Source of the DNA: Natronorubrum halalkaliphilum
GTDB taxonomy: Archaea > Halobacteriota > Halobacteria > Halobacteriales > Natrialbaceae
Reading direction: 5' to 3'
Assembly (NCBI RefSeq): GCF_009834785.1
Contig: NZ_WUYX01000015.1
Span: forward strand, 62,001-126,000
DNA length: 64,000 nt
This document shows positions 23,181-30,393 of the stretch, piece after piece. The translations under genes and the position numbers were made by a program. Below the pieces are notes generated by a model. It searched no databases. It worked only from the letters and a program-made list of their open reading frames with translations, and was not told where the DNA came from. Within the stretch, counting starts at the first letter, position 1, and each line of letters begins with the position of its first letter.

Positions 23181-23957
23181 TTACACTCCGCTTCGAATCC
23201 GGTCTTCCGCATCCTCGAGCGCTGCGTCCCGATCGAAGTCGTCGATGATCGCCCGCAGTTGCTCCTCGTCGGCGTCGGCCAACTCCTGTGCGTGCTCGGT
23301 CATGTTCGGCACCGCGCGGATGATGTTGTCGACGATCGGGATCTCCGCGACCTGGGGCGACCGCGAGAGCGGATTGAGGTCGATCACGATCTCGGTCTTC
23401 CCCATCTCGTTCAGCGCCTCCGCCCGGTCGCCGTCCTCGAGGGGCACGAGCACGACGTCGGCTTCGTAGATCCCGTCGGCGTCGACCTTCGCGCGCTGGT
23501 GATCCAGATTCGGGATCCGGGCGTCGGCCTCGAGCCCTTTGACGTCCTCGGCACCGTGCTCGCGAAGGTGGTCCGCGATGGCCTCGATCCGCTCCGGAGT
23601 GCGGTTGAAGAGGTTGACCTCGAGGTCGGCACCGGTAGCCTCGGCGAGTGCGGTCATCTCGCCAGGGACCAGCGCGGCGACGTTGCCGTTGATCGAGAGG
23701 ACGGGGTGGTCGGCGCAAAGCAAGTGCGCAGCGGCGGCGCGTTCGGCCGCGGCTGCGCTCGGAATGGTCGCTTCGCCGAGCAGGTAATCGAAAGCGCTGC
23801 CGCGACCTTCGGCGTGCATCCCCTGGAGGTGCGTGATCCCCTTCTCGACACCTTTTTCGATCCGGTGGCGCGTGAGCAGGTCCTGATATCTGGGGTGATC
23901 CTCGGGGATCTCCTCTTCGTGCTCGACGTCGGCGGAAACGGTGTCGTACTCGGTCAC
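23181..23957 (-). CDS. 4-phosphopantoate-beta-alanine ligase (phosphopantothenate synthetase)
   Basis: A 258-residue archaeal CoA-pathway enzyme that joins 4-phosphopantoate and beta-alanine using ATP. It replaces the bacterial pantothenate synthetase and pantothenate kinase order. Diagnostic blocks: EDHPRYQDLLTRHRIEKGVEKGITHLQG, GRGSAFDYLLGE, LSINGNVAALVPGEM, LEVNLFNRTPERIEAI, VVLVPLEDGDRAEALNEMGKTEIVIDLNPLSRSPQ and VDNIIRAVPNM. The start at 23957 has a TATA-like CTGTTTTTTATC about 27 bases upstream. Its pathway partner, pantoate kinase, lies about 6 kb away at 29560-30393 on the same strand. Confidence 0.95.
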   Translation of the reverse strand: MTEYDTVSADVEHEEEIPEDHPRYQDLLTRHRIEKGVEKGITHLQGMHAEGRGSAFDYLLGEATIPSAAAAERAAAAHLLCADHPVLSINGNVAALVPGEMTALAEATGADLEVNLFNRTPERIEAIADHLREHGAEDVKGLEADARIPNLDHQRAKVDADGIYEADVVLVPLEDGDRAEALNEMGKTEIVIDLNPLSRSPQVAEIPIVDNIIRAVPNMTEHAQELADADEEQLRAIIDDFDRDAALEDAEDRIRSGV

Positions 23958-25278: not shown

Positions 25279-25926
25279 CTACGGGCCGCTATCGAGCACC
25301 CCTCCGACCGCGTTCGCCTCGCCGCGACGGACGAGTTCCGACGCTGTCGAGACGGCACAGTCGAGTTCCTCCGCAACTGCCTCGATGCCGCCCTCGCGCG
25401 GGATTTCGTAGAATCCGACCTCCTGGGCGGCTCGCAGTGCGGCCGCCTGTCGATCGGAAACCGACGCGTCGGCGACCGCGATCTCCTGGCTGACCCAGCG
25501 GACGTCCAGTTTCATCCCGTCAGGAACGTCTTCCACGACGGCGGTCAGCGCCGACGGATGGCCGACGACGGTCAGTCGAACCGTTCTGTCCGATCGGATC
25601 TCGATAGGCGGGACGACCACGACGGTCTCCTGTGCGAGCGCGTTCACCAGGGACATCCCTTCCGGCCCGAGGTCTCGGCGAAGATAGAGGAAGAAGCCGT
25701 CCTCGGAAGACGTGATATCGTACTCGAGGACGGTCTCGAGGTCGTCAAGGAACGACTCGTAGGCCTCGGGGTCGCCGTAGACGAACGACGTAATCGTCTC
25801 GACGCCGTCGACTGCCTGTCCGCCGACGATGATCTCCCGGTCGAGATCCGGCGACTCGCAGATGCCCCGATGCAGCGGCGGAACCGCACCCCGGTCGTAC
25901 TGCAGTTCGATACGCATCGATTTCAT
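25279..25926 (-). CDS. Bat-type (HTH_10) transcriptional regulator
   Basis: A 215-residue regulator. The first about 150 residues resemble the sensory module of haloarchaeal bacterio-opsin-activator-like proteins (beta-rich, ending SLVNALAQETVVVVPPIEIRSDRTVRLTVVG). The C-terminal HTH_10 domain reads DRQAAALRAAQEVGFYEIPREGGIEAVAEELDCAVSTASELVRRGEANAV. The start at 25926 is supported by a minus-strand TATA-like TTTTATC (25951-25957) 25-31 bases upstream; an ATG 9 bases downstream is also possible. It lies immediately downstream, on the same strand, of the DUF1508-repeat gene, with 264 bases between them, so it could be related in regulation but is not tightly coupled. Confidence 0.85.
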   Translation of the reverse strand: MKSMRIELQYDRGAVPPLHRGICESPDLDREIIVGGQAVDGVETITSFVYGDPEAYESFLDDLETVLEYDITSSEDGFFLYLRRDLGPEGMSLVNALAQETVVVVPPIEIRSDRTVRLTVVGHPSALTAVVEDVPDGMKLDVRWVSQEIAVADASVSDRQAAALRAAQEVGFYEIPREGGIEAVAEELDCAVSTASELVRRGEANAVGGVLDSGP

Positions 25927-26190
25927 GACGCGAGGGTGTCGCTCGATAGGGATAAAACCCCGATAGAATTCGGGAACAGTCCGACGGCATCGTCGGCGAA
26001 ATCGAGGACACGGTCCGAAACTCCGCTCTCCGTCGATCCCGCCGCGGGCCGCTCCTCGGCGCAACCAGCGGTCGCGTTCGCGACTGGGGCGGCGGTCGCC
26101 GACTCCCGGTATCGTTCTCGTATCAAATCGGGGAAACGCGGCGAAAACAGGCGGCAGCCGATAGCCGACGCTCGTTCAGGCGGGCGACGC

Positions 26191-29094
26191 TTACTCCGTG
26201 AAGGTGATCCAGCCTTCCGGGGCGTGGGCCTTCACGTCGTTCATCGCCTGGCGGGCGTCCGTTCGGCTCTCGTAGGTCTGCGTGCTCTCGGCCATCGTCG
26301 ACCCGTACTCGTCGACCAGCCGCCAGACCCAGCCATCCTCTGCGGTGTGGAGTTCGAAGGAAACGCTGTCAATCTCGAGGATACTCGCGTCCTCGATCAG
26401 GGAGCGGACGTCCTCGAGGGCCTCGCGTGCGGCCTCGGTCGAGGGATGCGTTTCGGCACCGCTGGCGATGGTGCGGCCGTCCTCGTCGATAAGCCGCCAG
26501 CGCCAGCGGTCGTCCTCGTCAGCGACCAGTTCGAAGGAGGCGACGTCGAAGTCGACGCGGCCGGCCATCGGTGCGAGTTGGCGAACGTCCTCGACGTCGC
26601 CCATGACGGCCGCCTTGGACGAGACCGCGCCGACCGCACCCGCGATCACCTCGCGGTCGCGGTCGACGAGTTCCCAGGTCCAGCCGTCGTCGCCGTCGAG
26701 GCGGATCGCCGCGTCTTCGATCGCGAAGATCGGCGCGTCGCTCGCGTGAGCCTTGAGGTCGTCCGCACCGGCCATCGCCCCGTCGCGGTCGGCGTAGGAG
26801 ACGACCGAATCCGCGATCTCATCGCGGTCGCGGTCGAGCAGTCGCCAGTGCCAGCCGCCGCTGTCGTACAGCTGTACGGCGACGTCGCCGATCGTGTGTT
26901 GGCGAGCGGCCGCGGCCGCCTCGCGAACGTCGTCGAGGCTATCGACGAGTTCGTCCCGGGTCGTATGGGCTTTCCCGTCTTCGGCGACGGTTTCACCCGA
27001 CGGCAGGACGAACCGCCAGTGCCAGTCCTCGGCCGCGTATCTCTGGAACACCGCCCGCTCCATCGTTCGGACGTCGGAGTCCAGATGCTCGAGCAGCCGG
27101 TTCATCGCCTGTCGCGCGGCGCCGCGGGTCGGGTGCGTCGCGGGGTCTTCGGCAACGAGTTTGCCGGCCTCGTCGATGAGTCGCCAGCCCCACTCGTCGT
27201 CCTCGTTGACGAACAGTTCGAACGCCGCGGTCTCGATCTCCAGCAGTTCGGCCTCGGGAGCCTGCTCTTTCAGCGTCATCATCGCCTCGGCGGCTTCCCC
27301 GCGCGAGGTGTGTTCTTCGCCGCTGTCGGCGAGCACGTTTCCGTCCTCGTCGATGAGCCGCCAGCGCCACTCGCCGGAGTCGGCCTCATAGACCTGGAAC
27401 GCCGCGTGCTCGAACTCGATGAGGTCGGCCTCGCTGGCCTGGTCGCGAACCCGCTGGATCGCTTCCGTCGCGGTCTCCGCGTCGGGGTGGGGCTCGGTGC
27501 TCGCGGCGACGATCTCGCGATCGTCGGTCACGAGCCGCCAGTTCCAGTCGGGGCCGGTCTGATCGGTATACTCGAGTGCGGTGCCACCGTCCGGTTTCAC
27601 CGCGGGCTCGTCGACCGTCGCCGGGAGGTCGTCGCCCCCGGCCTCCGCCGTCGCGTCGATTTCGTCGGTCGGATAGACCTCGTACTCGGCCTCGTCGATT
27701 TCGACGACATCCGCCTCGAGTGCGTAGTCGCCGAACCGCTCGGCACCGTCTTCGATGGCGTCGTGGTCCGTCGAGGCGTCCGGACTCTGCGCGACGACGT
27801 GCTCGGTCTCGTCGACGAGCCGCCAGCGCCACTGCTCGCCGGATTCGTACAGTTCGTACGTCGGCTCGCCGGCGACGGTCACCGACGCCGATTCGAGTTC
27901 GGGAAGCAGCGCTTCGGCGGCCGCCTCGGCGTCGCGCCGGGTATCGAACGTGTCCGAACAGTTCGCGACGGCGTCGTCACCGTCGTCGACGATCCGCCAC
28001 GTCCAGCCGTCGGGCTGTTCGACGAGTTCGACGCCAACGTGTTCGATATCGAGCAGGCGCGCGCGGTCGAACCGTTCGGCGAACGTCTGGGCGGCCTCCT
28101 CGGCTCGCTCCTGCGATCGGTAGCCCGCGTCGCTCGAGGCCAGCGGATTTCGATCGTCGTCGACCAGTTGCCAGTACCACTGATCGCGTTTCTCGGCGTA
28201 GGTGAACGCGGCACCCTCGATTTCGATGACGTCCGCGTCGGGGCCGCGGTCTTTCAGGAAACTCACGGAGTTCTCGGCCTCGTCGCGTTCGCCGAAATCT
28301 CCGGTCGAGGAGCCGACGACGCTGCCGTCGTCGCGTGCGAGCGTCCACTGCCAGGTTCCGTCGCGGTCCTCGTAGAGCCGGAACGCCGAGGTGGTCAACT
28401 CCATCAGCCCTGCGGAGCTGATCTGTGACTGAACGCGCTCGATGTTCTCCGTGGCGTCCGGCCGCGTGACGGCGCTCTCGTTGCTCGTCGCGAGCGCCTC
28501 GAGGTGGAGGACGTTCCAGTTCCAGTCGCCGTTCTCGTCGCGGAAGACGGCGAACTGTGCGCTTTCCATCGTATCGCCGGTCAGGATCGCCGGATCGTCG
28601 CTCGCCCCCTCCTCCTCGACGAACATCCCTTTCTGGCCCGTCAGGACCGGTACGAGCGCCGTAACTCCGGCGATCAGCCCGACGCCCAGGGTGTACACCG
28701 TGATAACCTGAACGCTGTAGTCGGTGCCGAGCTCTCGCCAGTTGTAGGGGTACGCCCAGCCGAAGAACATGACCCCGCCCAGTGCGACGAGAAGGCCGAG
28801 TACACTCGCGTAGATTCCGATTCTCCGTACCGGGAGCATGAGGACGATGCCGAACAGACAGAACGCGAGTCCCGTCGCCGCCGCGATCCCCGATACTCTG
28901 GTCAGGGTGTAAAAGTCCGTACTCCCCCCGCTACCGGCGTAGCCGACGACGAACGTAAACACTCCGGCAGCGCCGAGGATATAACCGAAGATGAACAGCC
29001 AGTAGCCGTACACGTCCTTGCTCGAGTCGGGTTCACCGACGTAGTGTTCGTAAAGCCGAAACAGTTTGTGGTGAATTTCAGTTGTCGAAGACAT
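26191..29094 (-). CDS. Large membrane protein with 13 DUF1508-like repeats
   Basis: A 967-residue protein. The N-terminus has four TM segments (about residues 30-160: YGYWLFIFGYILGAAGVF, GLAFCLFGIVLML, ASVLGLLVALGGVMFFGWA and VYTLGVGLIAGVTALV). From about residue 180 to the end there are 13 tandem repeats of about 56-60 residues with the consensus FxLYxDxxGxWxWRLvDxdGxxvAdS...R.eA...v.....A..leie. The W-x-WRLVD core and the SRxEA helix are the features of the DUF1508/YegP fold. One repeat (about residues 505-590) carries an acidic insertion. Start at MSSTTEIHHKL; a TTTATTA box lies about 33 bases upstream. Function unknown. The repeats may form a long beta-rich cytoplasmic or extracellular array; the topology is not decided by the sequence. 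Confidence 0.9.
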   Translation of the reverse strand: MSSTTEIHHKLFRLYEHYVGEPDSSKDVYGYWLFIFGYILGAAGVFTFVVGYAGSGGSTDFYTLTRVSGIAAATGLAFCLFGIVLMLPVRRIGIYASVLGLLVALGGVMFFGWAYPYNWRELGTDYSVQVITVYTLGVGLIAGVTALVPVLTGQKGMFVEEEGASDDPAILTGDTMESAQFAVFRDENGDWNWNVLHLEALATSNESAVTRPDATENIERVQSQISSAGLMELTTSAFRLYEDRDGTWQWTLARDDGSVVGSSTGDFGERDEAENSVSFLKDRGPDADVIEIEGAAFTYAEKRDQWYWQLVDDDRNPLASSDAGYRSQERAEEAAQTFAERFDRARLLDIEHVGVELVEQPDGWTWRIVDDGDDAVANCSDTFDTRRDAEAAAEALLPELESASVTVAGEPTYELYESGEQWRWRLVDETEHVVAQSPDASTDHDAIEDGAERFGDYALEADVVEIDEAEYEVYPTDEIDATAEAGGDDLPATVDEPAVKPDGGTALEYTDQTGPDWNWRLVTDDREIVAASTEPHPDAETATEAIQRVRDQASEADLIEFEHAAFQVYEADSGEWRWRLIDEDGNVLADSGEEHTSRGEAAEAMMTLKEQAPEAELLEIETAAFELFVNEDDEWGWRLIDEAGKLVAEDPATHPTRGAARQAMNRLLEHLDSDVRTMERAVFQRYAAEDWHWRFVLPSGETVAEDGKAHTTRDELVDSLDDVREAAAAARQHTIGDVAVQLYDSGGWHWRLLDRDRDEIADSVVSYADRDGAMAGADDLKAHASDAPIFAIEDAAIRLDGDDGWTWELVDRDREVIAGAVGAVSSKAAVMGDVEDVRQLAPMAGRVDFDVASFELVADEDDRWRWRLIDEDGRTIASGAETHPSTEAAREALEDVRSLIEDASILEIDSVSFELHTAEDGWVWRLVDEYGSTMAESTQTYESRTDARQAMNDVKAHAPEGWITFTE

Positions 29095-29559: not shown

Positions 29560-30393
29560 TCACTTCAGCATTGCGCCCGCCGGATGTGTCGCACAGACGG
29601 TCGGCTCGTAGCCGGCGTCCGAAAGTCCTGTCCCGAGCGCGAAGACGGTCTCGCCGAGCATGGCCATCGACGCCTGTCCCTCGACGTCGGTGACGTCGCC
29701 GATCGTCCGCGCGACCTGCTCGGTCACCAGTTCCGCTTCGCGGGCGAACATTCGAGACGCGTACATAAACGAGAGCAGCGTCGGCTCCTCGACGACTCGA
29801 GAGAGCGCCTGCTTTCCGGCGGCCGACAGCCGGTCGGTCTCCCCTGAGAGCACGTCGGCCGTCGACAGTTCGCCGAACGACACGTACTCCACGCGCGCTC
29901 GCTGGGGAATCGCATCGAGTTTGTTCTCCAGGGGTCCGCCCGGTTCCAGACGGATCGGAGCGCCGCCGTGGGCCTGGGCAACCACGTCGCCTAATCCCGT
30001 CCCCGCCTGTACCTCCGCGCCGTGGGCGATGGTGACGAGTTCGTTCGCCGAGAGCTTGCGTTCGAACACGTGATTCGCCGCGAGCGCGGTTCCGAGCGCC
30101 ATCGCCCCCGAGACGCCGAAGCCGGAGCCGAGCGGGAGTTCCGACTCGGCCTCGACTCGAGCCGGTGCCTCGAGCGTCTCGAGAACCGTCTCCACGGGAT
30201 CGATCTCGAGTTCGTCCCCGTCGAGGACGACCGTCGATTCGCCGTCGGCTGCGGGTTCGACGGTTACCTCGACGCCGTCGGTGAGCGTCAGTCCCGCACC
30301 GCGGGAGCCCGCCTTGGTCGGATCGTCGTCTGGGTGAGCGCTGAAAAAACCCGTAATGTGCCCCGGAACGAACGCCGTCGCCTCCTCGCGCAT
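29560..30393 (-). CDS. Pantoate kinase (GHMP kinase family)
   Basis: A 277-residue archaeal enzyme that phosphorylates pantoate to 4-phosphopantoate, the step before phosphopantothenate synthetase in archaeal CoA synthesis. Visible: EATAFVPGHITGFFSAHPDDDPTKAGSRGAG at the N-terminus (family-specific), the GHMP phosphate loop PLGSGFGVSGAMALGTALA, and GLGDVVAQAHGG. The start at 30393 (MREEATAFVPGH) is preferred over an ATG 90 bases upstream because a TATA-like GTTATATCG (30415-30423) lies 26 bases before it and would otherwise be inside the gene. The partner ligase is at 23181-23957. Convergent with nothing; upstream aspS is on the same strand with 120 bases between. Confidence 0.93.
   Translation of the reverse strand: MREEATAFVPGHITGFFSAHPDDDPTKAGSRGAGLTLTDGVEVTVEPAADGESTVVLDGDELEIDPVETVLETLEAPARVEAESELPLGSGFGVSGAMALGTALAANHVFERKLSANELVTIAHGAEVQAGTGLGDVVAQAHGGAPIRLEPGGPLENKLDAIPQRARVEYVSFGELSTADVLSGETDRLSAAGKQALSRVVEEPTLLSFMYASRMFAREAELVTEQVARTIGDVTDVEGQASMAMLGETVFALGTGLSDAGYEPTVCATHPAGAMLK

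Follow-up and report, generated by a model that had tools for sequence, protein, structure and literature searches.

Relatives of the array units

DUF1508 domains (Pfam PF07411) are widespread and without known function; among 14 control genomes they were present in Escherichia coli, Caulobacter, Haloferax and Methanosarcina. Several members have solved structures. HVO_2922 of Haloferax volcanii (NMR structure 6Q2Z; NCBIfam NF041908) is a free single unit of 60 amino acids and is shown as a symmetrical dimer whose chains each have one helix and four strands (PMC7217052), whereas YegP of E. coli (2K8E) and SO_3888 of Shewanella (2K49) are soluble proteins of two tandem units that lack a membrane domain. 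E. coli yegP is listed as a hub of genes whose expression rises under several stresses (PMC9501238), and HVO_2922 is induced by perchlorate (PMC12175516). Here, we describe a haloarchaeal protein in which 13 such units follow a DUF7139 membrane domain, discuss why a structural role is at present its best explanation, and compare it with a sister family of five units. We found no paper on DUF7139, none on tandem DUF1508 arrays and no description of the two combined in this way; both domain families are already catalogued.

HVO_2922 is the solved relative nearest in sequence to the array (phmmer E 4.8e-9; Foldseek rank 4) and shares fold and sequence family with each of its units, but has a full signature (see below), whereas the array consists of 13 degenerate units fused to a membrane domain. 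YegP and SO_3888, with the same fold, take Foldseek ranks two and three. The top Foldseek match is Cis12 (All3315; PDB 7B5H chain AD) from the thylakoid-anchored contractile injection system of Anabaena; an extra domain of Cis12 forms a wide connector towards the thylakoid membrane (PMC8894136). The C-terminal stretch of Cis12 that we scanned (residues 962-1156) reaches 28.1 bits with DUF1508 against a Pfam cut-off of 22, and overlaps only partly with the extension that is absent from AFP (residues 610-1100); the likeness to YegP is not mentioned in that paper (PMC8894136). Unlike the array protein, Cis12 is part of a phage-tail-like machine, and with weak similarity (hhalign probability 44%) and a poor overall superposition it is not a homologue over its length. 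It nevertheless suggests, as a possible precedent, that structural connectors may contain DUF1508 units.

Domain architecture and topology of the array protein

The window analysed comprises 64,000 nucleotides of Natronorubrum halalkaliphilum (contig NZ_WUYX01000015.1, positions 62,001 to 126,000), from a genome of 4.56 Mb. On its minus strand, an open reading frame running from an ATG at 29094 to a stop at 26191 encodes the array protein; the open frame permits a start further upstream, giving up to 990 residues, and aligned orthologues begin near the start used here (Table 1). A sequence-only reading of this stretch had proposed 13 tandem DUF1508/YegP-type units on a membrane anchor with four transmembrane segments, and Pfam, NCBIfam, a unit profile and, for the four segments, hydropathy agree with it. 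The DUF7139 match (PF23600; cut-off 30 bits) covers model positions 2-148 of 150. DUF1508 scores 238.8 bits against its cut-off of 22 (E 3e-72), with eight stretches passing on their own; 12 pass with the HVO_2922 model (NF041908), and a profile made from the array's own units recovers all 13. The units are about 58 residues long, and their W-x-W cores, at residues 191, 248, 306, 364, 422, 517, 576, 635, 691, 748, 805, 864 and 922, lie 56-59 residues apart, with a single gap of 95. The R-x-EA helix that had been ascribed to every unit is found in some of them and not in the rest.

Table 1. Features of the array gene and its neighbours, in coordinates of the window.
Feature	Coordinates	Strand	Basis
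CDS, 967 aa: DUF7139 membrane domain, then 13 DUF1508/YegP-type units	26191..29094	-	ORF translation, Pfam, NCBIfam, unit profile
DUF7139 four-helix membrane domain (residues 10-156), both termini predicted cytoplasmic	28627..29067	-	Pfam PF23600, 142.6 bits; hydropathy and positive-inside charge, 42 orthologue rows
Unit 1 (residues 175-229)	28408..28572	-	unit profile
Unit 2 (residues 231-288)	28231..28404	-	unit profile
Unit 3 (residues 289-346)	28057..28230	-	unit profile
Unit 4 (residues 348-404)	27883..28053	-	unit profile
Unit 5 (residues 406-462)	27709..27879	-	unit profile
Acidic low-complexity insert in first hairpin of unit 6 (about residues 476-513; roughly 36 residues)	27556..27669	-	core-spacing comparison
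Unit 6 (residues 501-557, core part)	27424..27594	-	unit profile
Unit 7 (residues 559-616), central, best conserved (91% mean identity), nearest canonical DUF1508	27247..27420	-	unit profile, conservation, signature count
Unit 8 (residues 618-674), second in conservation (86%)	27073..27243	-	unit profile, conservation
Unit 9 (residues 675-731)	26902..27072	-	unit profile
Unit 10 (residues 733-787)	26734..26898	-	unit profile
Unit 11 (residues 790-845)	26560..26727	-	unit profile
Unit 12 (residues 848-904)	26383..26553	-	unit profile
Unit 13 (residues 905-962), reaches C-terminus, third in conservation (81%)	26209..26382	-	unit profile, conservation
Pantoate kinase (GHMP kinase family), conserved upstream neighbour	29560..30393	-	PF00288; synteny
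4-Phosphopantoate--beta-alanine ligase / phosphopantothenate synthetase (PPS), conserved downstream neighbour	23181..23957	-	PF02006, 255.5 bits; synteny
Bat-type regulator (HVO_0513_N + HTH_10), adjacent here	25279..26064	-	domain scan; synteny

Across the 42 orthologue rows, arginine and lysine are concentrated in the loop between the second and third transmembrane segments (RR/RK-rich; mean 2.6 per orthologue) and nearly absent from the loop between the first and second (0.05 per orthologue), the outer loops being acidic. By the positive-inside rule, both termini, and hence the array, are predicted to be cytoplasmic.

Structure prediction supports the fold of the units and has low confidence for their packing. 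In a five-unit AlphaFold2 model (26 rows) the units, of three strands and a helix each, mostly have a pLDDT of 70-88, and Foldseek matches them to 2K8E, 2K49, 6Q2Z and 3BID, the beta-beta-beta-alpha fold being that of the solved members. By profile, fold and core, the array units thus belong to the DUF1508/YegP family. The junctions of the same model fall below a pLDDT of 50 (pTM 0.28) and do not fix how one unit packs against the next, and the full-length model with 19 orthologues reaches a pLDDT of only 54 and a pTM of 0.25. With packing at such low confidence, rigidity of the array is read only from the conserved spacing of its units.

Constant number and spacing, lost signature

The sequence-only reading had suggested comparing repeat number among related strains, and no variation was seen: 13 units are present in every one of 40 distinct full-length orthologues, which come from several haloarchaeal families and have identities of 44-86%. 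Counted with a loose profile, each orthologue has 13 or 14 matches, the surplus match being a low-scoring fragment in both proteins inspected (L093 and L095); an apparently broken array in Natrinema thermotolerans (L119), which contains assembly N, was left out of the count. Between species, units match the unit of the same number, in 13 of 13 cases in close pairs and in 7-13 of 13 in distant ones. Core-to-core spacing is typically 57-59 residues, and at most junctions the orthologues differ by no more than one or two residues. Wide variation is seen only in the step from unit 5 to unit 6, which ranges from 58 to 103 residues owing to the hairpin insert of unit 6. The other indels are few and small, and nearly all of them sit inside a unit, at its first hairpin turn, rather than between units.

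The count of 13 also survives a change of anchor. On its plasmid pNMAG02, Natrialba magadii encodes an 872-residue relative (L175:3118-5736), about 54% identical in the part compared, which has another hydrophobic N-terminus in place of DUF7139 and still carries 13 units. With this copy and the full-length orthologues at the same count, the array is, as judged from these alignments, of fixed length and not an expanding comb.

What the units have lost is the canonical DUF1508 signature, W-R-W-R-L-x3-N-G-x-I-x-A-D-S-G-E-G-Y, which is our description of the haloarchaeal members rather than a curated criterion. None of the 13 units keeps its N-G...G-E-G-Y part, and all retain the W-x-W core, of which the first and third tryptophans are nearly invariant in orthologues except in units 5 and 10. 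The asparagine at position 8 (N8) is found in 0-12% of sequences in every array unit and the glycine at position 18 (G18) in 0-24%, except in unit 3 (83%), whereas in the five-unit family described below (142 units) both approach 100%, and N-G-x-I-x-A-D-S-G-E-G-Y is kept with few exceptions. Decay, which the sequence-only reading had noted for some of the cores, is not limited to some units. Loss of the signature with retention of the core suggests, at the level of sequence, a structural role.

A proposed role as a membrane-tethered rod

A structural rod that carries conserved points for docking is the explanation that best fits constant number, constant spacing and signature loss together. 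In the proposed model, to which we give a probability of about 0.45, the protein is a cytosol-facing, membrane-tethered, rigid rod of fixed length, with a putative function as a scaffold or spacer. DUF7139 would anchor the rod in the membrane with both termini on the cytosolic side, and the 13 YegP-fold units would form a continuous, probably rigid array with fixed junctions. The units would have retained the tryptophan core for folding and lost the signature, most of them serving as spacer elements, while docking would probably take place on three conserved units: unit 7, which is the exact centre of the array, unit 8 and the terminal unit 13. The most likely task of the rod would be to keep partners in the cytosol at a defined distance from the membrane, and the first candidates, by position only, are the coenzyme A enzymes encoded on either side.

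The contrast between the 13-unit and five-unit proteins is of wider use for DUF1508, since it allows the requirements of the fold to be told apart from the role of the signature; constant number and spacing with signature loss, beside a canonical sister, make both roles testable.

Gene neighbourhood and coenzyme A synthesis

Pantoate kinase and PPS catalyse consecutive steps of archaeal coenzyme A synthesis. Of 42 loci, 37 have pantoate kinase upstream of the array on its strand, 35 have PPS downstream and 40 have at least one of the two, often with aspS next beyond them; in the window, the Bat-type gene and other genes lie between the array and PPS. This fixed place between two coenzyme A genes provides a first candidate process for the array, and a more specific proposal would make it a membrane scaffold or regulator dedicated to coenzyme A synthesis that binds both enzymes. 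Such a role would fit the persistence of the gene order in other families at 42-45% array identity, and also the arrangement in array-less genomes, where the two genes are directly adjacent in five of eight (52-151 bp apart in four, 440 bp in one), so that the array gene sits between two consecutive pathway enzymes. The neighbourhood may, however, be passively inherited from an old operon. Array-less genomes retain both enzymes, the divergent loci L092 and L093 have neither in the stretch read, and the pNMAG02 copy is flanked by a glutamine synthetase family gene and transposases instead. We consider a dedicated coenzyme A scaffold unlikely.

A link between the array and the Bat-type regulator, implied by the sequence-only reading, is not supported. 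The regulator does follow the array in N. halalkaliphilum, but adjoins it only in Natronorubrum and some Natrinema and is absent from beside it in most orthologous loci. It also occurs without the array, following pantoate kinase in an array-less Natrinema-type genome. Besides the five array-less genomes with pantoate kinase and PPS directly adjacent, one more of the eight has the Bat-type gene between them.

Sister architectures with an odd number of units

In other haloarchaeal families (L145-L172 and L174), DUF7139 is followed by five canonical DUF1508 units, the same plan as in the array protein, and this five-unit family coexists with the 13-unit gene in some genomes. Among 30 such loci in these families, 29 have five units and one has three; three further genomes have five units after DUF7139, and one frame has a single unit. 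In contrast to the 13-unit array, the linkers of the five-unit family vary after units 1 and 3: core spacing is 59 residues from unit 2 to unit 3 (32 of 32) and from unit 4 to unit 5 (31 of 31), and ranges over 65-97 from unit 1 to unit 2 and 50-85 from unit 3 to unit 4. This is direct sequence evidence for a 1+2+2 layout, and the invariant within-pair spacing suggests pairing of units. No conserved neighbours of the five-unit family were identified in the short flanks, which consist mostly of spurious frames.

The all-odd counts (1, 3, 5 and 13) and the 1+2+2 layout are the basis of a further, improbable reading, in which DUF7139-anchored DUF1508 proteins would consist of one unpaired unit plus whole pairs, the odd unit pairing with that of a second chain and so joining two anchors; the 13-unit form would then be a dimeric rod of quantized length, which might keep coenzyme A enzymes at the membrane. 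Oddness is confined to DUF7139-linked proteins and amounts to only four independent values, a relative on a Haloarcula marina plasmid (L177) having an Amphi-Trp domain and two DUF1508 units. Within the 13-unit array, unit similarity showed no even/odd periodicity (26.4% versus 27.9%).

Other explanations and distribution

The array might instead be a multivalent cytosolic sensor, the units of which bind a small ligand or peptide and report occupancy through the membrane domain. The strict signature of ordinary DUF1508 units could be a binding site, and the stress responses of yegP and HVO_2922 mentioned above would suit a sensor, but none of the 13 units retains this signature, the protein carries no output domain and the adjacent Bat-type regulator is not conserved, which leaves little probability for sensing.

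Less probable still is neutral accretion, an ancestral duplication of units persisting with no role that depends on length. The units are on average only about 27% identical to each other, so the duplication is ancient, and the gene has been lost in some lineages: it is present in 37 of 155 sampled Halobacteria genomes (open frames of 934-1053 residues, with one exception of 651) and patchy even within a genus, some species of which lack it, which makes any function, that of a rod included, dispensable. The arrangement spans a wide range of families, which points tentatively to loss and not to a recent gain in the Natrialbaceae. Against accretion, no unit has been gained or lost in the 40 orthologues or the plasmid copy, and the near-invariant W-x-W cores are hard to explain without selection. 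Of the functions first suggested (scaffold, adhesin or sensor comb), a scaffold remains the best guess, and an extracellular adhesin or surface comb, for which a long repeat array on a membrane anchor might speak, is very improbable given the predicted cytoplasmic C-terminus, the lack of any signal peptide seen on the protein, and a fixed unit number and strong sequence conservation unlike those of typical adhesins.

Both domains also occur apart from each other in the host genome, which has one single-unit DUF1508 protein (L034, G000:C6:201993-202139), fused behind an Amphi-Trp domain, and two further DUF7139 proteins without DUF1508 units. A DUF7139 paralogue (L001:1471-2529, G000:C57) ends in a cysteine-rich tail of the CxxC type (CGNCKHFEY...CARHETAMDDMDACEEW) that may be a zinc ribbon. 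Outside Halobacteria, DUF7139 matches that are weak but above the cut-off were seen in the phylum-level genomes G402, G404, G405, G420 and G422, so the membrane domain extends beyond the haloarchaea.
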